Source: Nitrospira sp. (lineage in GTDB: Bacteria; Nitrospirota; Nitrospiria; Nitrospirales; Nitrospiraceae). Taken from it: DNA of 64,000 bases. Made by a program: the position numbers and the translations under genes. Below, in pieces: positions 3,405-15,633 of the stretch. Every line of letters starts with the position of its first letter. The first letter of the stretch is position 1. The DNA is taken from contig JAFEBI010000008.1 in the NCBI GenBank assembly GCA_018242725.1, forward strand, positions 1-64,000, in the 5' to 3' direction. The notes under the pieces were generated by a model. The model was not told the DNA's origin. It saw nothing but the letters and a program-made list of their open reading frames with translations, and made no database searches.

Positions 3405-3811
3405 GCCTCATTCGCCAGATGGCGTGCTGCAGTCACGCGATCGCTCCTCTGTTCGGATTGCTTGAGTTGACAACAACCGGCTGGCCTTCTCATGAGTAAC
3501 GGGCTTTCCGAGAAATGCCGGCGAAGTGGAGTGGGCGGCAGTCGAGAGGCCTGTCTGCTCCCTGGTCTATGAAGAACGCTCGCGCAATTCTCACCACGGT
3601 GTTTGAGTGTCAGTCAGCGCTGGTCGGGCCAGCCGGCGAGCCGCGAAGACGACGGGCGCCAGTAGGGACGGCATTGTCCCAATTCCAACGCTCGCCCCTT
3701 CCGAAATCCCATATGGTATAAGTCATACCGTCATGACTGCTGTCTTAGGAGCCCACAGTTATCAGGACGTTCGCTCGAACGACGGTTCATTCCAATGTGA
3801 GGCTCATCGTG
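3405..3811. other. Intergenic region
   Basis: About 400 bases between the methyltransferase and the CorA-like gene. Short plus-strand frames exist but none has a domain or good start. I see no terminator hairpin, repeat or RNA gene here; it presumably carries the promoter of the transporter gene. Confidence 0.4.
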
Positions 3812-5458
3812 ATGGCTGACGGATCAAAGATCGTTCGGCACTTCCGGCAAATCGTGCTCTGGCCGATGCAGCTTACGCCTATTCGTGAAGATGCGCCGAT
3901 TCAGAAGCATTGGGAACTCCTTCAGGCGACCAATCCGAACAATCCGTGGCGAGAGGTGCTGGACGAGTTTACGGGTGATCCTCGGCAGTTCCAGGAACGA
4001 CATTACAGCGAGTTTGTGACATTTCTGCCTTACGTCCAACGGTTTTTGTACGGCGAGGGGAAACGAACGAGCGCGGAAGTTCGTGAAGGGTCCGCGATCC
4101 GTGTCTTCCGGCGAAATGATATTGCGAAGGTGCGGATGATATTTCCTGGTCCGCATGAAGCTCCTGTGACCTTTGCGGTGGCTCATGTGGATTTATATTT
4201 TTTCTACGACATTGATGTGGCGATTCTGGTTGTCGAGATCTACGGCGATGATGTGCCGCTTGCGCAGGTGCAAAATTCGCTCTTTCGCTTCGGTCGATGC
4301 TATCCCACCTACTGGGAGCGTGACGGGCATGGCGGCCATTGTCCCAAGCATGTAGAGTGGCTTGCCTCGGATGGGACGGTGCTGGCCGTCTCCGACTATG
4401 ATCACCGTGAAAAATACCTCTCGTTTGTCTGTCAGCATCGGTCGTTGAGCCTTGCCTCCCACTGGGAGTTTCTGCTCGAACCGCTGGTGCTCCACCATTC
4501 GGAAAAAGTAGGTCCTATTCGGTATCGACAACTTGAATACCACCTGATGCCGGTGATGGCGTATCTCTCGCTCGACGAGCCGGGTGCCCTGACGCGGGGA
4601 GAGTTTGCGCGAGTAGGGTTGGCGGCGACACCGGGTAGCTCCGACACGTTACCGTTTTCAGTGCGCTATCTCCGTGACTTTGAGGAGCGGCATTGTTATG
4701 ACCGGTATTGGAATGAACAGGGGCCAGGTTCACCAGGCGCCCGTTTTATGTGCACGGGTCGGGTGTTTACGATGGTGGGTGAGGCCGGAGAACCGGCATT
4801 CGAAGATCGTAAGACAAATTTAGAACAATTCCGTCACGAATATTTTCTATTGTTTCTGATCCCGCATTTTCATAAGGCGGCCCTGTTGATGCTGACGAAT
4901 CGTCTGGTCGAGGCGATGCATCAGCTTGATCTCACCAAGTTGGACTCCGTCCGGCAGTTTCGCCGCGTGATTCGTCAAACGCTCGGCATCTTTCTCCGAT
5001 TTACCCATCGCTACTGGTCTCATCAGGTGTCGGATCATGGACAGGTCAAGGAACTGTATCGGATGGTCAGTGAGCACCTTGGTACCGGTCGACTCTACGA
5101 CGAACTCCGGTCGGAGCTGGAAGATATGAGCCAATATCTCGACAGCGATGCGCTCCGTCGCCAAGGCGAAACAATGGTTCGCCTGACGGTGGTGGCGACG
5201 GTCGGCTTGATCGGTGTGGCAACGACCGGGGTATTGGGGATGAACCTCTTCGACTTGGGTGCGGAACCGTCCACCAAGCGTATCTGGTATTTCGTCATTG
5301 TGCTGATTCCCGTCATCATCGTCACGCTCTATACGGTCCTGAAATCGAGGCGGCTTTCGGACTTTTTGGAAACCTTGGCCGAGGAGCATCGGTCATCACG
5401 GGACAAATTTGCTGCATTGCTGACGGTCTGGCGAAGCAAACAAGGACGGGATTCGTAG
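3812..5458 (+). CDS. CorA-like Mg2+/divalent cation transporter
   Basis: A 548-residue protein whose C-terminus has the CorA topology: two transmembrane helices (about residues 458-480 and 490-511) with the diagnostic pore motif GMN at residues 476-478 (TGVLGMNLFDLG). The large N-terminal region, about 450 residues, is longer than the cytoplasmic funnel domain of classical CorA (near 260). It ends in a long helical stretch leading into the first membrane helix, as expected for the stalk helix. Transport of Mg2+ or another divalent metal is inferred from the family. The ATG at 3812 is preferred over one five codons upstream. It is flanked by long gaps, so probably its own transcription unit. 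Confidence 0.8.
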   Translation: MADGSKIVRHFRQIVLWPMQLTPIREDAPIQKHWELLQATNPNNPWREVLDEFTGDPRQFQERHYSEFVTFLPYVQRFLYGEGKRTSAEVREGSAIRVFRRNDIAKVRMIFPGPHEAPVTFAVAHVDLYFFYDIDVAILVVEIYGDDVPLAQVQNSLFRFGRCYPTYWERDGHGGHCPKHVEWLASDGTVLAVSDYDHREKYLSFVCQHRSLSLASHWEFLLEPLVLHHSEKVGPIRYRQLEYHLMPVMAYLSLDEPGALTRGEFARVGLAATPGSSDTLPFSVRYLRDFEERHCYDRYWNEQGPGSPGARFMCTGRVFTMVGEAGEPAFEDRKTNLEQFRHEYFLLFLIPHFHKAALLMLTNRLVEAMHQLDLTKLDSVRQFRRVIRQTLGIFLRFTHRYWSHQVSDHGQVKELYRMVSEHLGTGRLYDELRSELEDMSQYLDSDALRRQGETMVRLTVVATVGLIGVATTGVLGMNLFDLGAEPSTKRIWYFVIVLIPVIIVTLYTVLKSRRLSDFLETLAEEHRSSRDKFAALLTVWRSKQGRDS

Positions 5459-5602
5459 TCAACCGGTACCCCCTCATCTCTGCAAGGCAGAGCTATCCTG
5501 GCCATACTTCATCACAGTGCTTATGGCATGAGACAACGTACGTTCTTCTGACCGTCTTTTCACTGAGCGCAGTGGGATCTTGATGGACCATTGCGTCGAA
5601 TC

Positions 5603-5631
5603 TTGACACAGCATCAACGACTCAGTAGGAT
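5603..5631 (+). promoter_or_regulatory. Sigma70-type promoter of the pyr operon
   Basis: TTGACA at 5603-5608, a 17-bp spacer and TAGGAT at 5626-5631 fit a vegetative promoter (perfect -35, 4/6 in the -10). A start near 5638 would begin the transcript almost exactly at the PyrR-binding hairpin. Confidence 0.65.
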
Positions 5632-5638
5632 AGCCCAG

Positions 5639-5670
5639 CCTTTAATGCTCATCCAGTGAGGTGAGCAAGG
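5639..5670 (+). promoter_or_regulatory. PyrR-binding anti-antiterminator hairpin
   Basis: The segment TCCAGTGAGGT at 5652-5662 matches the conserved PyrR RNA-binding loop (UCCNGNGAGGY) at every defined position. It sits between GCTC (5647-5650) and GAGC (5663-5666), extended by CCTT/AAGG, so a stem carries the loop. Its 3' part GTGAGCAAGG (5661-5670) can alternatively pair with CCTTCTCAC (5715-5723) of the downstream terminator, leaving one C bulged. That gives the mutually exclusive antiterminator expected of PyrR attenuation: PyrR plus UMP stabilises this hairpin and permits termination. The pyrR gene follows directly. Confidence 0.85.
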
Positions 5671-5714
5671 AGTTGATCATGTGTGGTGTTCCGACTCACG
5701 TTCGTTCCAGTCGA

Positions 5715-5746
5715 CCTTCTCACGCTCGGGGTGAGGAGGTTTTTTT
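5715..5746 (+). terminator. Rho-independent attenuator upstream of pyrR
   Basis: CCTTCTCAC (5715-5723) pairs with GTGAGGAGG (5731-5739) around a 7-nt loop, followed by seven T residues. It lies before the first gene of the operon and its 5' arm is shared with the antiterminator, so it is an attenuator and not an end-of-gene terminator. Confidence 0.85.
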
Positions 5747-5761
5747 ATGCCTGAAATGTGA

Positions 5762-6352
<591 letters not shown>

Positions 6353-6374
6353 TGGTCATGGAATGGAGGGTTCC

Positions 6375-7298
6375 ATGAGTGTGAAGCGCAAAGATCTGTT
6401 GAGTCTGGCCCCCTTGGCGGTCGATGAGATCACGCTCATCCTCGATACCGCCGATTCTTTTAAAGAAGTGACAGGGCGCGAAATCAAGAAAGTGCCGGCG
6501 CTGAGAGGGAAGACGGTGGTCAATCTCTTCTTCGAGCCAAGCACGAGGACGCGGACGTCCTTCGAATTGGCAGCCAAGCGGCTGAGCGCCGACGTGATCA
6601 ACTTCGCGCCCTCTTCCAGTAGTGTCGTAAAGGGGGAAACGTTGCTCGATACGGCGAGAAATATCGAAGCGATGCAGGCGGACATTATCGTCTTGCGTCA
6701 TTCCTCGGCCGGCGCCGCCGAAGCATTGGCTCAGGGAGTGAAGTCGTCGGTCATCAATGCAGGCGATGGGTGGCATGAGCATCCAACGCAAGCGTTGCTC
6801 GATCTGTATACGATTCGGCAACGAGGAATGAGTTTTCAAGGGTTGCGGGTGGCGATTGTCGGCGATGTGTCGCATAGTCGTGTTGCCCGTTCGAATATCT
6901 ACGCGCTCGTCAAACTCGGTGCTGAAGTCAGATTGGTGGGGCCTCCGACGATGATGCCATGGGGAGTCGAAAAGCTGGGGGTCAAAGTATACTCCGACAT
7001 GGATGAAGGTCTGCGCGACGTGCATGTCATCATGATGCTGCGGTTGCAATTGGAGCGGCAAGGGCGCGCGCAGTTTCCTTCAATCCGAGAATACTCGCGG
7101 CTCTACGGGCTCACCGCTGAGCGTGTGCGGCTGGCTGATTCCGGTGCCATCGTGATGCACCCAGGTCCTATCAATCGCGGTGTGGAGATCGCACCGGATG
7201 TGGCCGATAGTTTATCGTCGGTCATTTTGGATCAAGTGGCGAATGGGGTGGCGGTACGGATGGGGATTTTGTACCTCATGTCGGGAGCCAATTCATGA
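6375..7298 (+). CDS. pyrB: Aspartate carbamoyltransferase catalytic subunit
   Basis: A 307-residue ATCase catalytic chain forming N-carbamoyl-aspartate from carbamoyl phosphate and aspartate, the second step of UMP synthesis. The carbamoyl-phosphate motif STRTR is at residues 56-60, followed by [12 protein letters not shown] and the aspartate-side [12 protein letters not shown]. Length is typical. The ATG at 6375 has GGAGGG just upstream and is preferred over an in-frame ATG at 6363. No pyrI regulatory subunit is present, so allosteric control by that route is not expected; control is through the upstream PyrR attenuator. Confidence 0.96.
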
Positions 7299-7410
7299 AT
7301 CTGATGATTCGGTTGAGTGTGTACACGAGGGGGTGGAGCTTGAAGAGCGTCGGTGACGTGACAGATCATCAGAGACAGCAGATACCGCCACATTTTAGAA
7401 AGGGTTGATC

Positions 7411-8697
7411 GTGTCGATTTTGATTAAAGGTGGTCGAGTCATCGATCCAGGCCGGTTTGTCGGAATAGCCGATGTACTCATTGATGACGGGAAAATCACG
7501 GCGGTAGCTCCCCGGCTAGCAGCTCCCATCGGCAGCCGGACGATTCAGGCGGAAGGGAAACTGGTCCTGCCGGGGTTCGTCGATCTGCACGTGCATTTTC
7601 GGGAGCCGGGATTCGAGTATAAAGAAACCATTCTAAGCGGCAGCGCAGCGGCAGTGGCGGGAGGATTTACAACCGTGTGCTGCATGCCCAATACCAGTCC
7701 GGTGAACGACAATCAAGCCGTGACCGAGTTCATTCTGGAACGGGCTCGGCTGGCTGGTCTTGCGAATGTGTTGCCGATCGGCGCGATCACCAAAGGATCC
7801 GAAGGGAAGGAACTGGCCGAAATCGGTGACTTACGGCGCTCCGGTTGTGTGGCGATCTCGGATGATGGGAAGCCCGTGATGAACAGTTTGGTGATGCGGC
7901 GTGCGATGGAATATGCGTCGGCGTTTGACCTCACCGTCGTCGATCACTGCGAGGATATCCACCTCGCCGAAGGCGGTTGTATGAACGAGGGATTGATTTC
8001 CACCGAACTTGGATTGCCCGGTATTCCTGCGGCAGCCGAGGATGTGATGGTGGCGCGCAATCTGTCGCTGTCTGAGTTGACGGGGGCTCGCTTGCATCTT
8101 GCTCATATCAGCACCGCCGGATCGGCGCGAATGGTTCGGGAGGCAAAGGCCCGCGGAATTCGTGTGACAGCGGAAGCCTGTCCACACCATTTCACGCTGA
8201 CCGAAGAACTGGTGCGCGGGTACAATACACATGCCAAAATGAATCCGCCCTTGCGGACCTGGAGCGATGTGCAGGCGATCAAGGAAGGGTTGCGTGACGG
8301 GACGATTGATGTGATCGCAACGGATCATGCTCCCCATGCGACTCAGGAAAAACAGCAGGATTTTACTGAGGCTCCATTTGGAATCGTCGGATTGGAGACT
8401 GCGCTCTCGCTGACGTTGGGATTGGTGGAGGAAGGGGTCCTGTCGATCGAGCAAGCCGTTCAGAAGCTCACGTCTTCTCCGGCCGCTGCGTTCGGACTCA
8501 AAAAAGGCACATTGGAGGTAGGTGCGGATGCCGATGTCGTCGTCGTGGATCAGCATGGACAGTGGGAGGTCGATCCAACGAAATTTCGATCCAAGAGCCG
8601 AAACACACCGTTCGTCGGATGGAAAGTGAAAGGGCTGGTGCAGACTACGATCGTAGGCGGCCGTGTGGTATTCGAGGCTGGCCCCGTGGAGCAGTAG
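7411..8697 (+). CDS. pyrC: Dihydroorotase
   Basis: A 428-residue amidohydrolase that cyclises carbamoyl-aspartate to dihydroorotate. The metal-binding DLHVHFREPG (His60 and His62), VDHCED, LAHISTAGSARM and TDHAPH blocks are all intact, so this is an active-type class I dihydroorotase and not the degenerate PyrC-like subunit that some bacteria pair with ATCase. The start is read as GTG 7411 with AGAAAGGG ending seven bases upstream; TTG 7405 is also in frame. There is a 112-bp gap after pyrB with no visible terminator. Confidence 0.95.
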   Translation: MSILIKGGRVIDPGRFVGIADVLIDDGKITAVAPRLAAPIGSRTIQAEGKLVLPGFVDLHVHFREPGFEYKETILSGSAAAVAGGFTTVCCMPNTSPVNDNQAVTEFILERARLAGLANVLPIGAITKGSEGKELAEIGDLRRSGCVAISDDGKPVMNSLVMRRAMEYASAFDLTVVDHCEDIHLAEGGCMNEGLISTELGLPGIPAAAEDVMVARNLSLSELTGARLHLAHISTAGSARMVREAKARGIRVTAEACPHHFTLTEELVRGYNTHAKMNPPLRTWSDVQAIKEGLRDGTIDVIATDHAPHATQEKQQDFTEAPFGIVGLETALSLTLGLVEEGVLSIEQAVQKLTSSPAAAFGLKKGTLEVGADADVVVVDQHGQWEVDPTKFRSKSRNTPFVGWKVKGLVQTTIVGGRVVFEAGPVEQ

Positions 8698-9219: not shown

Positions 9220-10392
9220 GTGAAAAAGGCAGTATTGGCATTGGCGGACGGGACGGTGTTTGAAGGCCGTGCTCTTGGATGCGAAGGTGAAGCGGTCGGT
9301 GAAGTCGTGTTTAACACGGCCATGACCGGCTATCAGGAAGTACTGAGTGATCCGTCCTACAAGGGACAGATCATCACCATGACCTGTCCACAAATCGGGA
9401 ACTATGGTGTGACGCCGGAAGACATGGAATCGCGTCGAGCTTGGGCTGAAGGGTTTATCGTACATGAAGCGAGCCGATTGGTCAGTAATTGGCGAGGCAG
9501 GCAGACGCTTCACGAATCGTTGGTAGAGACTCAGGTTGTCGCCATTGAGGGGATCGATACAAGGGCGTTGACAAGGCATTTGCGCGAGCATGGGTCGCAA
9601 CAAGGTTGTATCACGCATCTTGATCTCGACCATGAACGAGCGATTGGGCGGGCCAGACAGGCACCCGGTATCGTCGGGCGAGATCTTGCCGCCGAAGTCA
9701 CCTGTACGCATCCCTATGATTGGACGACAGGGACCGGTGACTGGGCGCCATGGCCGAACGTTGACACAACAAGAAGGGGCGCGCGCTGGCGGGTTGTCGC
9801 CTATGATTTCGGCATCAAGCACAATATCCTGCGACGACTGGTTGATGTCGGGTGTGATGTGACCGTGGTCCCTGCCGCCACGACGGCCGAAGCCGTTGAG
9901 GCGCTGAAGCCTCACGGAATTTTTCTTTCAAACGGTCCGGGAGACCCGGAGGGTGTTCCGTATGCGGCGAAAGCGATGGGACAGCTGATTGGTCGCTATC
10001 CCATCTTTGGGATTTGCTTGGGGCATCAGATTCTTGGCCTCGCGTTCGGACTCAAGACCTACAAGCTGAAGTTCGGCCACCATGGAGCGAATCATCCCGT
10101 GATGGATCTTCGAACCAGAAAAGTTGAAATTACCTCACAGAACCATAATTTCGCCGTGCAGGCGCAACCGGTGCTTGTTGAGGTGCCAACGGTCTCGCCT
10201 GTGATCGAGACGCGATACGGGCGGATTGCCATCACTCATGTCAGTTTGAATGATTGCTCCGTTGAAGGCATGGCTTCTGTTGAGCATCCGGTCTTCTCAG
10301 TCCAATACCATCCGGAGGCAGCGCCGGGACCGCACGATGCTGCCTACTTGTTCGGTGAATTTGTGCGGCGTATGGAGAACCATTATGCGTAA
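9220..10392 (+). CDS. carA: Carbamoyl-phosphate synthase small (glutaminase) subunit
   Basis: A 390-residue CarA. The N-terminal half carries the small-subunit domain ([14 protein letters not shown] opening), the C-terminal half a class I glutamine amidotransferase: nucleophile Cys266 in [10 protein letters not shown] and the catalytic dyad His364-Pro-Glu366 in YHPEA. It hydrolyses glutamine and channels ammonia to CarB. The start is GTG 9220 with a weak purine-rich site upstream. Its stop overlaps the start of the SppA-like gene by eight bases, and carB is separated from it by two protease genes, an unusual split. Confidence 0.96.
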
Positions 10393-11335
10393 TTCTATTG
10401 TGGTGGGGGTGATCGGACTTCTGTTATCCGGCTGTACCTTCAATTTTCCGTTGTTCCCCGGCCCTGGACCGTTACAGGAAATGCAGGTCGACGGGAGCGG
10501 AAAGGCCAAGGTGCTGTTGATCGAGATATCTGGAATGATCAGCTCGCAGGAAAAAGACGGATTCCGGCCGACATCCAGCATGATTGCAAGCGTGAAAGAG
10601 CAACTGACCAGGGCCGCGAAGGATGAACAGATCAAGGCCGTCGTGTTGCGCATCAACTCGCCTGGAGGAACGGTCACGGCCTCGGATATCATTTATCACG
10701 AGTTGAAGACATTCAAAGCCAATCGTAAGGTTCCCATTGTTGCCTCCATCATGGATCTTGGGACCTCGGGTGGCTACTATATTGCAGCCGCTGCCGATCG
10801 GGTCATGGCGCATCCGTCATCCGTCACCGGGAGTATCGGTGTCATCATGCTCACGGTGAATGCCAAAGGGTTGCTCGAGAAAATCGGAGTCGATGCAACG
10901 GCTGTCACGTCAGGCCCTCGCAAGGATATGGGTTCGCCGTTTCGGACTATGACGACCGAAGAACGCGCCATCTTCCAAGAGCTGATCGATTCGTTTTATC
11001 AACGGTTCTTGACCATCGTGCAGGAGGGCCGTTCCAATTTGCAGATGGACCAGATCAAGAGGCTGGCTGATGGTCGTATCTATACAGGGGAGCAAGCGAA
11101 GGAGGCCGGCTTGGTCGATCAGATCGGCTATCTGGAAGATGCCATTGCGGTTGCGAAGAAACAAGCCGGCCTGACGGAGGCCCGTGTTGTGACGTACCAG
11201 CATCCAGGCGAGTATTCGAACAACGTCTATTCGAAGCTTGCGGTTCCGGGCGGACTCGCCGGCCTTGCGGATTTCGACCTTGCCGCATTGGTGCGTGGGG
11301 GAACTCCTCAGTTTATGTACCTGTGGATGCCTTAG
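10385..11335 (+). CDS. sppA: SppA-type signal peptide peptidase, lipoprotein
   Basis: A 316-residue S49-family serine protease that digests cleaved signal peptides at the inner membrane. The ATG at 10385 overlaps the carA stop and gives a lipoprotein signal ending LLLSGC (Cys17). The catalytic serine is Ser128 in [14 protein letters not shown], and Lys180 in SGPRKDMG is 52 residues later, the spacing of the Ser/Lys dyad of short (B. subtilis-type) Spp[12 protein letters not shown] forms the oxyanion region. Longer upstream reading in the same frame runs through carA and is not coding. Translational coupling to carA is likely. Confidence 0.92.
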
Positions 11336-11403
11336 TAGAAAGAAGGATACTGATGGTGTGGCTGGTGTTAGAATGAAGTGGGAACATGCGGTAGGGGCCG
11401 CCG

Positions 11404-12372
11404 ATGACACAGCTATTGAACCACGAGATCAACCGGTTGTCTTCTCTGCCCATCAGTCGACGAGGGCTGCTCTGTGCGGGTCTTCGTGGAGCGGTCGGGC
11501 TTTCCTGTCTGCTGTCGGCTGGGTCGATGGCAACCTTGGCTGCAGCAGTGAGCGGATGTGTCAGGGCTCCAGGGACCGCGCGGGATCAGTTTATTTATAT
11601 TTCCGAGGAAAAAGAAATGGCGATGGGGGTCGGTGCCTATCGGGAATTACTGCGAAACGCACCGGTAAGCGACGATCCTGAGTTGAATGAGTTGGTCAAC
11701 AGGGTGGGGAATCGAATTGCCGCCGTCGCCAATAAACCGGAATATCAATGGGAATTTGCGATCATTCGAGACGATCGCACGATCAACGCCTTCGCCCTTC
11801 CCGGTGGAAAGGTTGCGGTCTTCACGGGAATTTTGAAGATTACAAAGAACGAAAACGGCTTGGCCACCGTGATCGGTCACGAAGTGGCGCACGCCCTCCA
11901 ACGGCATGGCGCAGAACGGTATAGTCGGAGTATTCTGGAGACCATCGGTCAAGTCGGTGCGCTGGCTGCCGGAGCCGCGGCTGGTCGACCGGATGCAGCC
12001 ATCGCGGCGATGAGTGCCTATGGTGTCGGGGTGTCGTTACCATTCGGTCGGAAACAAGAATCAGAAGCCGACTACATCGGGCTCAAGCTGATGGCGCAGG
12101 CTGGGTACGATCCTCGAGAAGCGGTTCCGTTTTGGGAGCGAATGAGCGGATGTCCAAGGCAGATGATCGATAAAGTTTGTTTCCGATCCCAACACACGAT
12201 CCCTGAATTTTTATCCACACATCCATCTGATATCGCGCGTATCAATCAGATCGAAGCGTGGCTCCCTGAAGCCATGAAGCACTATCATGCCGTTCAGGAG
12301 AAGCAGGACCCAGTGCCGGCTCCCTATCACCCCCTCATTGGTCCAGAGCTTCCTCCGGTTAACCACGGTTAG
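11404..12372 (+). CDS. M48-family zinc metalloprotease, exported
   Basis: A 322-residue periplasmic/outer-membrane M48 peptidase related to LoiP/BepA. Zinc ligands are His159 and His163 in HEVAH and Glu221 in ESEADYIGL. The N-terminus contains SRRGLLCAGLRG (residues 18-29), which resembles a twin-arginine motif, followed by a hydrophobic stretch and a possible lipobox AVSGC (Cys52). It is therefore probably an exported lipoprotein; which route it uses is not certain. It lies between sppA and carB, ten bases ahead of carB, so two envelope proteases are co-transcribed with pyrimidine genes. Confidence 0.9.
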   Translation: MTQLLNHEINRLSSLPISRRGLLCAGLRGAVGLSCLLSAGSMATLAAAVSGCVRAPGTARDQFIYISEEKEMAMGVGAYRELLRNAPVSDDPELNELVNRVGNRIAAVANKPEYQWEFAIIRDDRTINAFALPGGKVAVFTGILKITKNENGLATVIGHEVAHALQRHGAERYSRSILETIGQVGALAAGAAAGRPDAAIAAMSAYGVGVSLPFGRKQESEADYIGLKLMAQAGYDPREAVPFWERMSGCPRQMIDKVCFRSQHTIPEFLSTHPSDIARINQIEAWLPEAMKHYHAVQEKQDPVPAPYHPLIGPELPPVNHG

Positions 12373-12381
12373 CAGACTACC

Positions 12382-15300
12382 ATGCCAAAACGAACGGATA
12401 TCCAATCAATTCTGATGATCGGATCAGGCCCAATCGTGATCGGGCAAGCCTGTGAATTCGATTACTCCGGTACGCAAGCCTGTAAAGCCCTCAAAGCCGA
12501 GGGCTATAAGGTCATTCTCATCAACAGTAATCCGGCCACGATCATGACCGATCCGGAGTTGGCCGATCGGACCTATGTGGAACCGATTACGTTGGAGGTG
12601 GTTGAAAAGGTCATCGACCGGGAACGTCCTGATGCCTTGCTGCCGACCATGGGAGGGCAAACGGCTCTCAATACCACGATGGGCTTGGTCAAACGAGGGG
12701 TGCTCGAGAAATATGGAGTGACTCTGGTGGGTGCGTCGGCGGACGCGATCCATACGGCAGAGGATCGAGAAGCGTTTAAGCTGGCCATGCAGCGGATCGG
12801 GCTTCGAGTGCCGAAGAGCGGGACGGCCCATACTCGGCAGGAGGCCGTCGCGATTGTGGAGACCGTCGGGTTTCCCGCGATCATTCGCCCTTCCTTCACC
12901 ATGGGGGGGACCGGTGGAAATATTGCCTACAATCGTGAAGAATTTGAGCGGTTGATCGAGTGGGCACTGGCCATGAGTCCCGTGAGTCAGGTCTTGATCG
13001 AGGAATCGGTGATCGGGTGGAAAGAGTACGAATTGGAGGTCATGCGCGACCTGAAAGACAATGTCGTCATCGTGTGTTCCATTGAAAACTTCGATCCGAT
13101 GGGGGTCCATACCGGGGACAGCATCACCGTGGCGCCGGCCATGACCTTAACCGATAAAGAATACCAACAGATGCGGGATGCGGCTCTACGCATCATTCGC
13201 GAGATCGGGGTCGACACGGGCGGATCGAATATTCAGTTCGGCATTAACCCGGCCAATGGTGAGATGGTCGTCATTGAAATGAATCCTCGGGTATCCCGAA
13301 GTTCGGCGTTGGCATCGAAGGCGACCGGATTTCCCATCGCGAAGATCGCCGCCAAGCTTGCCGTTGGATACACGCTGGATGAGATTACGAACGATATTAC
13401 CGGAGTGACAAAAGCATCCTTTGAGCCGGCCATCGATTATGTCGTGGTGAAGATTCCTCGATTTGCCTTTCAGAAGTTCAAAGGAGCCGATCCGACCTTG
13501 ACGACCCAAATGAAGTCGGTCGGTGAGGTGATGGCGATCGGCCGTACGTTTAAAGAGTCGTTGCAGAAGGCGATTCGCTCGTTGGAACTGGAGCTGAACG
13601 GGCTGGTTTCTCGGTTCGGTCTGGATCGCGGCATACCGACGGGTTTCAATCATTCGGAGGCCATCGAGAAGCTTGAGAGATTACTACGCACGCCGTTACC
13701 CGAGCGGCTGTGGTATCTGGCCGACGCCATGCGCCTGGGGTTGACCGACGAGGAATTGTTCGCAACGACGAAAGTCGATCCCTGGTTCTTAGACCAGGTG
13801 AGACAGCTGGTGGATTTTGAGCGGTCCCTTGTCGGTCATTCCGCCAACCCGGCCGAGTGTCTGAGCGGAGAACTCCTCTGGGAAGCCAAGGAACTCGGTT
13901 TTTCCGATGATCGCCTTGCGCACTTGTTGGGCTGTGACGTGGGGATGGTCGCGAAGGCCCGTATGGAAAATCGAGAACGAGGTGTGACCTATAAACGAGT
14001 CGATACCTGTGCCGCAGAGTTTGAGGCTCAAACTCCGTATCTCTATTCCACCTATGGGCACGAGTGCGAAGCGAGGCCGTCTGATCGAAAGAAGGTCGTC
14101 ATTCTTGGCGGGGGTCCCAATCGTATCGGGCAAGGGATCGAGTTTGACTACTGTTGTGTTCATGCGGCCATGGCGCTTCGGGAAGAAGCGATCGATACGA
14201 TCATGGTGAACTGCAATCCGGAAACCGTCAGCACGGATTACGATACCTCGGATCGCCTCTATTTTGAGCCGCTTACCCATGAGGATGTGCTGAATATCGT
14301 GCATCGAGAACAGCCGCTCGGCGTGGTATTGCAATTCGGAGGACAGACGCCCTTGAAGCTTGCACTCCCGCTCTCGAAGGCCGGTGTCAAGATTCTCGGC
14401 ACCAGTCCCGACGCTATCGATCTGGCGGAGGATCGTGAACGGTTCCGTGAACTGTTGAACAAGCTCGGCCTGCGTCAGGCGGAGAGTGGGACGGCTCGAT
14501 CCGTTGAGGAAGCGGTGCAGATCGCCGGGCAGATCAGTTACCCGGTCATGGTGCGTCCGTCGTACGTCTTGGGCGGGCGGTCCATGCAGATCGTCTATGA
14601 CGAAACCGGTTTATTGGAGTACATGCGGTCGGCGGTCAAGGCCTCGCCCAATCATCCAGTGCTGATCGATAAGTATCTCGCCGATGCGATCGAAGTCGAT
14701 GCCGATGCAATATCCGATGGGGACACCGTGGTGGTCGCAGGCATTATGGAGCATATTGAAGAAGCCGGGGTCCATTCGGGGGATTCAGCCTGCTCGCTTC
14801 CTCCCTACACCCTCGAGAAGGCTCTCGTCACCGAGATCGAGCGTCAGATGAGCATGTTGGCTAGAGAGTTAGGGGTGGTTGGGTTGATGAATGCCCAATT
14901 TGCCGTCAAGGGAGAGACGATTTATGTGTTAGAGGTCAATCCACGCGGATCCCGGACCGTTCCGTTCGTGAGTAAAGCGATCGGCGTTCCGCTCGCGAAG
15001 TTGGCAATGAAGGTGATGATGGGGCGAACGCTCAAGGAGCTTGGTCTGACACAAGTTCCGATGCCTGCGCATTTCTCCGTCAAAGAGGCGGTCTTCCCCT
15101 TCAATAAGTTTCCTGGGGTTGACGTGCTCCTTGGGCCGGAGATGAAATCGACCGGGGAGGTGATGGGCCTCGATGAAGATTTTGGCTGGGCCTTTGCCAA
15201 GTCCCAGGCCGGGGCCGGGGCCGTGTTGCCGACGTCCGGCACGGCGTTCATCAGCGTGAAGCCATCGGATCGTCCGGCCGCGCTCGAAGTGGGCAGGGCC

Positions 15301-15633
15301 TTGAGCCAACTGGGGATGCGGATTCAGGGAACGAGCGGAACCGCCGGCTATTTGCGCGAGCATGGACTTCCCGTGGAGGTCGTGAATAAAGTGGCCGAAG
15401 GCAGGCCGCACATCGTTGATCATATTAAGAACGGCTCGGTGGCCATTGTCGTCAATACGGTACGGACGGCCTCGGCGCATGTTGATTCGCTTGCCATCAG
15501 ACGAGAGGCACTCCATCGGGGGATCCCCTATTACACGACCATGCGAGGGGCCCATGCTGCGGCGATGGCGATCGAGGCAATCCTGAAAAAAGATCTATCG
15601 ATCCGGACATTGCAAGAGTATCATCAGGCCTAA
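12382..15633 (+). CDS. carB: Carbamoyl-phosphate synthase large subunit
   Basis: A full-length, 1083-residue CarB. Two homologous ATP-grasp halves are visible: the first opens [20 protein letters not shown] near residue 10, the second [19 protein letters not shown] near residue 572. Each has a VRPS/IRPSF nucleotide-binding block and an EMNPR/EVNPR metal-binding block. The last 140 residues form the MGS-like allosteric domain ([22 protein letters not shown] onward, in part). With CarA it makes carbamoyl phosphate from bicarbonate, glutamine-derived ammonia and 2 ATP. Last gene of the pyr transcription unit; a palindromic repeat follows. Confidence 0.97.

Follow-up and report, generated by a model that had tools for sequence, protein, structure and literature searches.

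A conserved leader reading frame in a predicted PyrR-type attenuator of Nitrospira and related bacteria

Results

The pyr locus

The window, which is the whole stretch of 64,000 nucleotides analysed here, carries a pyrimidine biosynthesis operon on its forward strand. The gene order is pyrR (5795-6352, ATG at 5795, assigned by profile matches), pyrB (aspartate carbamoyltransferase, 6363-7298), pyrC (dihydroorotase, 7405-8697), an unassigned frame, carA (9220-10392), sppA, an M48-peptidase-like gene and carB (12382-15633, named only by reading its translated sequence). Between carA and carB, the pair sppA and M48-peptidase-like gene covers 10250-12372; the latter gene matches the BepA model below its cut-off. 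The neighbour upstream of the pyr promoter is a CorA-like gene (3797-5455; a weak match, far below cut-off). The pyrR product scores over the cut-off for four of the five NCBIfam PyrR models, matches solved PyrR chains in the PDB such as 1non and 1a3c (best E 2.1e-66) and is 96% identical to the closest named PyrR that we found, and it is encoded in the same operon as its candidate RNA site.

That site lies in the leader, also on the forward strand. A sigma-70-type promoter, TTGACA (5603-5608) followed after 17 nt by TAGGAT (5626-5631), is the sole promoter-like site found in 5300-6100, where 0.4 are expected, and predicts a transcript start near 5638. A putative PyrR-binding hairpin (the anti-antiterminator, 5639-5670) follows immediately, with a CCU/AGG lower stem, an internal bulge on its 5' side and a perfect upper stem of 8 bp at 5646-5667; its loop consensus, UCCAGUGAGGU, can be read in the sequence at 5652-5662. 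An intrinsic terminator (5713-5746; stem 5713-5741, seven T at 5740-5746) stands between this hairpin and the pyr genes. The promoter, the loop with its full consensus and the terminator with seven T had all been claimed in a preliminary description of this DNA, and all are present. It had also proposed an antiterminator pairing between 5661-5670, on the 3' side of the PyrR hairpin, and 5715-5723, which is also the 5' arm of the terminator; these candidate arms do pair strongly, as GUGAG-[C]-AAGG with CCUUCUCAC (duplex -12.3 kcal/mol).

The Rfam model of the PyrR element, RF00515, aligns end to end with 5635-5749, scoring 47.9 bits (E 5.9e-6). A default Rfam scan of the window returned no match because this score is under the curated gathering score of 54. 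Searched against the whole genome, with nine of 82 first-look candidates scored, RF00515 gave a single match, the one in the window, and no second PyrR site. The parts are not rare taken singly: the genome has 76 matches to the bare 11-mer loop motif and 57 to the reversed pattern, and 0.9 terminator-like sites are expected per 800 bases. We nevertheless reject a chance motif, given the full-length RF00515 match, the occurrence of the element throughout the phylum and the conserved spacing of promoter and hairpin. By its sequence, this is a PyrR-type attenuator, placed as the preliminary description had it.

Distribution of the element

The preliminary description proposed a covariance search of other Nitrospirota and presented PyrR attenuation as best known in Firmicutes. 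Of 395 Nitrospirota genomes searched in this way, 273 have an RF00515 match at E <= 0.001, and 55, several of them of the same genus, exceed the cut-off. The table holds 53 other genomes of the genus to which the window belongs, and 52 of these have a match (counted by eye); among the 14 controls matches were obtained in B. subtilis, L. lactis and Thermus composti. Starting instead from the PyrR protein, we examined 76 named loci, of which 67 carry the strict loop motif in the 450 nt preceding pyrR. One of the remaining nine has just 32 nt of upstream sequence, and the other eight carry a variant hairpin on reading, three of these being Methylomirabilota by title. In the Methylomirabilota leaders (L112, L113, L114) a C replaces the first U of the loop motif, and the leader frame begins LKIP or MKIP (by eye). 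The element is therefore ordinary for the phylum Nitrospirota, and the attenuator in the window, while of the PyrR type, is no isolated curiosity. Among the titles listed by literature searches for PyrR with Nitrospira or its phylum, which covered open-licence papers only, none dealt with this switch, and 'Nitrospir' is absent from the main text of two surveys, PMC3766115 (211 pyrR motifs) and PMC2965389.

The position of the element in the transcript is conserved as well. A promoter-like pair stands upstream of the hairpin foot in all Nitrospirales-like leaders (68 of 68), with a gap of 2-14 nt that is exactly 7 nt in most of them, where shuffled sequences lead one to expect 0.1. These leaders are the window and 67 named loci, two of which (L091, L103) are recorded under another phylum; seven other parsed loci were set aside. 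Because the pair precedes the foot in every one of them, the transcript, whose start is a predicted one, very probably has the hairpin at its 5' end. The earlier claim of a loop at the very 5' end is thus borne out as a prediction, and the layout is, on the same predictive footing, a conserved design in Nitrospirales. In the wider phylum a promoter-like pair precedes the hairpin in 58 of 120 leaders.

A reading frame that starts at the hairpin foot

What the preliminary description missed is a leader reading frame of 39 codons and a TGA (5679-5798), which crosses the terminator. Its putative Shine-Dalgarno sequence, AAGGAG (5667-5672), is also the 3' foot of the PyrR hairpin, and is followed by TTGATC and then by the ATG at 5679, a spacing of 6 nt. 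The hairpin foot needs AAGG in any case, and the Rfam consensus includes it, so only the fuller Shine-Dalgarno extension and the start codon argue for translation.

We scored this start signal by a rule that asks for a start codon 4-10 nt past a Shine-Dalgarno-like word at or just behind the hairpin foot. The rule was devised after looking at a first set of leaders and left unchanged for a second. With one leader per genus, 60 of the 68 leaders in the first set have such a start, against 15.3 expected (sd 3.2) when the linker is shuffled; with one per family the count is 21 of 26 (5.0 expected, sd 1.8), and among the named loci, which are closely related, 74 of 75 (17.7 expected). For the second set the count is 36 of 43 (8.7 expected, sd 2.5). 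Parsing lost 12 of 89 loci in the first set, as well as two of the 77 named ones (L084, L099), and six of 49 in the second, where three of the 43 remaining leaders repeat a genus. Several leaders scored as frameless have a start just outside the rule (a spacing of 11-12, or perhaps a CTG), and a few scored as having a frame look weak (family f34, with a TTG start). In ten leaders from four Nitrospirota families (L027, L120, L126, L137, L143, L164, L166, L193, L201 and L221; f17, f33, f36 and f37), the start codon lies inside a palindrome, GCAGC-(A/G)TG-N-GCTGC; this palindrome directly follows AGGAGG and might cover the ribosome site with a second fold.

All 96 leader frames of the two sets (60 and 36) either are open to the 5' arm of the terminator or end at most 9 nt from it. 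When a frame is counted as open if it reaches to within 12 nt of that arm, the leader frame qualifies in 60 of 60 leaders of the first set and the other two frames in 43 and 38 of 60; in the second set the figures are 36 of 36 for the leader frame and 31 and 32 of 36 for the others. The contrast between frames is clear for the first set but weak for the second, and the location of the stop is a stronger test of translation than the open frame.

In the window, the TGA at 5796-5798 overlaps the pyrR ATG at 5795 as ATGA. Across 87 leaders, with three repeat-genus leaders of the second set treated as separate labels, the first stop past the terminator 5' arm falls within 8 nt of a candidate pyrR ATG in 46 for the leader frame and in 12 and 15 for the other frames; the overlap is exactly ATGA in 17, against 2 and 5. 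With the window left out, discordant leaders stand at 41:8 and 39:9 (p 2e-6 and 1.5e-5), and taken by family the leader frame is higher in 17, lower in 4 and tied in 6 (p 0.007). The window and the other members of its family have ATGA in 10 of 14 cases, and the cultivated N. moscoviensis (L061) too has a leader frame that meets pyrR in an ATGA. A stop at a pyrR ATG is scarce in families f2 (1 of 6 genera), f16 (0 of 3), f21 (1 of 5) and f33 (2 of 8).

By the scorer used, the pyrR ATG at 5795 in the window has no Shine-Dalgarno sequence of its own. Among Nitrospirales-like loci, which are related and not independent, one precedes a candidate pyrR start in 10 of the 41 (of 70) that could be anchored, and one precedes pyrB in 54 of 70. 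Phylum-wide, some Shine-Dalgarno sequence precedes pyrR in 39 of 65 genera, so coupling between leader and pyrR is not the rule everywhere.

The encoded peptide is not conserved. Changes at codon positions 1, 2 and 3 number 24, 27 and 23 (23 pairs, each leader used once), and leader peptides share little between families, as is expected if the act of translation counts and not its product. To judge from these comparisons, the selected trait seems to be the loading of a ribosome at the hairpin foot and its passage as far as the terminator and, in roughly half of the leaders, on to pyrR.

Folding and covariation of the candidate antiterminator

Folding of 5638-5723 favours the PyrR hairpin. In structures sampled from truncated transcripts of the window, this hairpin is kept in at least 70%; the antiterminator pairing reaches 0.75 of the samples when any form of it is counted, and at most 0.30 when only forms exclusive of the PyrR hairpin are. 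The same sampling of 73 leaders from Nitrospirota and Methylomirabilota gave a median of 0.49 for the antiterminator, which was at 0.5 or above in 35 of the 73 and below 0.1 in 27, and a median minimum of 0.94 for the PyrR hairpin. For comparison we sampled five Bacillota leaders; they come from L177, L179 and L181, the three records out of eight in which RF00515 has a match. In three B. velezensis leaders and one of Lactobacillus, the antiterminator is at 0.99-1.00 and the hairpin at 0-0.01; in a Paenibacillus leader the antiterminator reaches 1.00, yet the hairpin keeps 0.89.

Across 69 leaders of the phylum, the hairpin arm and the terminator arm pair at -8.8 kcal/mol, against -6.3 kcal/mol with the terminator arm shuffled (p 4e-12). 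Over the same 69 leaders there is no phylum-wide covariation of the whole antiterminator pairing (own versus swapped arms 0.518, p 0.82), although the upper part of the antiterminator arm taken alone gives 0.583 (p 0.029); for the two arms of the PyrR hairpin, own arms beat swapped ones in 0.912 of comparisons on average (p 6e-13). Within 71 Nitrospirales-like leaders, own antiterminator arms beat swapped ones at 0.61 (p 1.4e-4, kinship not removed) and hairpin arms at 0.71.

We also considered whether a leader frame and a strong RNA antiterminator are mutually exclusive. In the first set a strong antiterminator was found in 8 of 60 leaders with a frame and in 4 of 8 without (p 0.028, at one of four thresholds tried), and in the second set in 11 of 36 with a frame and 1 of 7 without (p 0.65). 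The idea was dropped because the second set failed to confirm it.

Discussion

Sequence comparison establishes the element, its conservation, the start signal, the open frame and the overlap of stop and start, and we consider it reasonably probable that the leader is a PyrR-controlled transcription attenuator in which the ribosome does, or helps to do, the antitermination. We infer that PyrR and UMP bind at the hairpin, that the leader frame is translated and that its translation affects termination. Transcription would begin with the foot of the PyrR hairpin. When UMP is abundant, PyrR would hold the hairpin, whose foot contains the AAGGAG of the leader frame; no ribosome would load, the terminator would fold and transcription would stop before pyrR. 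When UMP is scarce, PyrR would leave and a ribosome would start at AUG 5679, following RNA polymerase into the 5' arm of the terminator, which could then not fold. Ending at the UGA that overlaps the pyrR AUG, the ribosome could restart on pyrR, and PyrR would in this manner shut off both transcription of the operon and its own translation.

The same leader could be a classical attenuator of the Bacillus type, in which 5661-5670 and 5715-5723 form an RNA antiterminator unless PyrR-UMP holds the hairpin, and the leader frame, if translated, only brings ribosomes to pyrR. The strength of that pairing in the window, its frequency among the window samples when every form is counted and the full-length match to RF00515 all speak for this scheme, as do the phylum-wide advantage over shuffled terminator arms, the preference for own arms within Nitrospirales and the slight one in the upper arm part. 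It is harder to reconcile with the lack of phylum-wide covariation of the whole pairing, with the more than two dozen leaders where the antiterminator hardly appears, and with a PyrR hairpin that stays folded on its own in most leaders, unlike in four of the five from Bacillota; even so, all the leader frames found extend as far as the terminator. We regard this scheme as possible but rather unlikely. The antiterminator pairing of the preliminary description stands as a strong pairing, but an RNA-only antiterminator of the Bacillus type is probably not the whole switch. Complementarity of the arms beyond shuffles and the preference for own arms in Nitrospirales keep the RNA antiterminator in standing as a contributor: it may contribute in Nitrospira, but it is not a phylum-wide necessity.

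That PyrR is mainly a translational repressor, as in Mycobacterium, blocking the leader ribosome site and through coupling pyrR, with the terminator as a polarity device only, appears improbable to us. A Shine-Dalgarno sequence in the hairpin foot, the ATGA overlap and the missing Shine-Dalgarno sequence before pyrR in the window speak for such repression, and in two Actinomycetota leaders the hairpin appears to lie immediately upstream of pyrR (by motif and eye; RF00515 does not match them). A hairpin with a T tract nonetheless lies between the PyrR hairpin and pyrR in all 195 parsed loci (152 and 43), which is not a count in its own right because the parser demanded one. Blocking the leader ribosome site alone would also not reach pyrB, since pyrB mostly has its own Shine-Dalgarno sequence, and the one covered by the hairpin here is that of the leader frame, its end lying 123 nt upstream of the ATG at 5795. 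Least probable, and hardly to be credited, is attenuation by a leader peptide in which particular codons or the nascent chain sense a metabolite. A leader reading frame does exist, but its peptides differ between families and its substitutions show no excess at third positions, so a codon- or peptide-specific leader is not supported.

Whether ribosome-mediated antitermination extends to Nitrospirota as a whole and to the three Methylomirabilota loci is, in our judgement, an evenly balanced question. If it does, PyrR would switch the loading of ribosomes on the leader frame, and one RNA-binding event would govern termination and, by the overlap of stop and start, the translation of PyrR itself, as a hybrid of the Bacillus and Mycobacterium arrangements in which the RNA-only antiterminator plays a lesser part or none.

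Textbooks present PyrR as a protein that works purely through the folding of an RNA. In the textbook scheme, as outlined in part of a review (PMC7430163), PyrR-UMP stabilises the anti-antiterminator and GMP or GTP opposes it. The leader resembles RF00515 and the Bacillus subtilis pyr operon in its loop consensus, its hairpin with a bulge on the 5' side, its terminator and the first place of pyrR in the operon. It differs in that the three B. velezensis leaders lack a start codon at the hairpin foot (by eye) and their antiterminator displaces the hairpin, whereas most Nitrospirota leaders examined have a leader frame.

Other known systems come closer in one respect or another. For the pyr leader of Thermus ZO5, Van de Casteele et al. 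reportedly proposed in 1997 that PyrR and a translating ribosome, not an RNA antiterminator, prevent the terminator. The arrangement that this proposal is said to call for, a leader frame with its ribosome site in the PyrR hairpin and codons reaching the terminator, is what we find; the likeness is one of description, that proposal reportedly concerning one leader, whereas here the frame is present in 96 of 111 leaders and in many overlaps pyrR. In Mycobacterium smegmatis, Fields and Switzer are said to have described in 2007 translational repression by PyrR, with the PyrR hairpin covering the Shine-Dalgarno sequence; there the hairpin reportedly controls pyrR directly, while here a leader frame and a terminator intervene. 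In the pyrBI leader of E. coli (pyrL), a ribosome on the leader frame that runs into the terminator prevents termination. The ribosome entering the terminator is shared, but pyrBI responds to UTP through pausing of RNA polymerase and does so without a PyrR hairpin. Literature searches on PyrR together with leader peptides, translating ribosomes or coupled translation returned no such paper among the open-licence titles listed. Our comparisons add support for the leader frame across many genera; the mechanism is possibly shared with Thermus and makes no new class.

If ribosome-mediated antitermination holds throughout the phylum, PyrR attenuation, translational repression by PyrR and the classical leader-peptide attenuators would be versions of a single scheme, and their evolutionary order could be put to the test. 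For Nitrospira, the leader would offer a concrete and mutable control point of pyrimidine synthesis.

Two leaders of other bacteria bear mention. In the pyrR leader of Paenibacillus cellulosilyticus (L179:1292-1474), a GTG 4 nt past AAGG opens a frame of 60 codons. This frame passes through the terminator and has its stop just upstream of pyrR, so some Bacillota may also possess a leader frame. In Acetoanaerobium noterae (L180, near 2056), a PyrR-type loop, recognised by its motif only and not matched by RF00515, is located downstream of pyrR, a short distance ahead of an AAGGAGG-ATG start.
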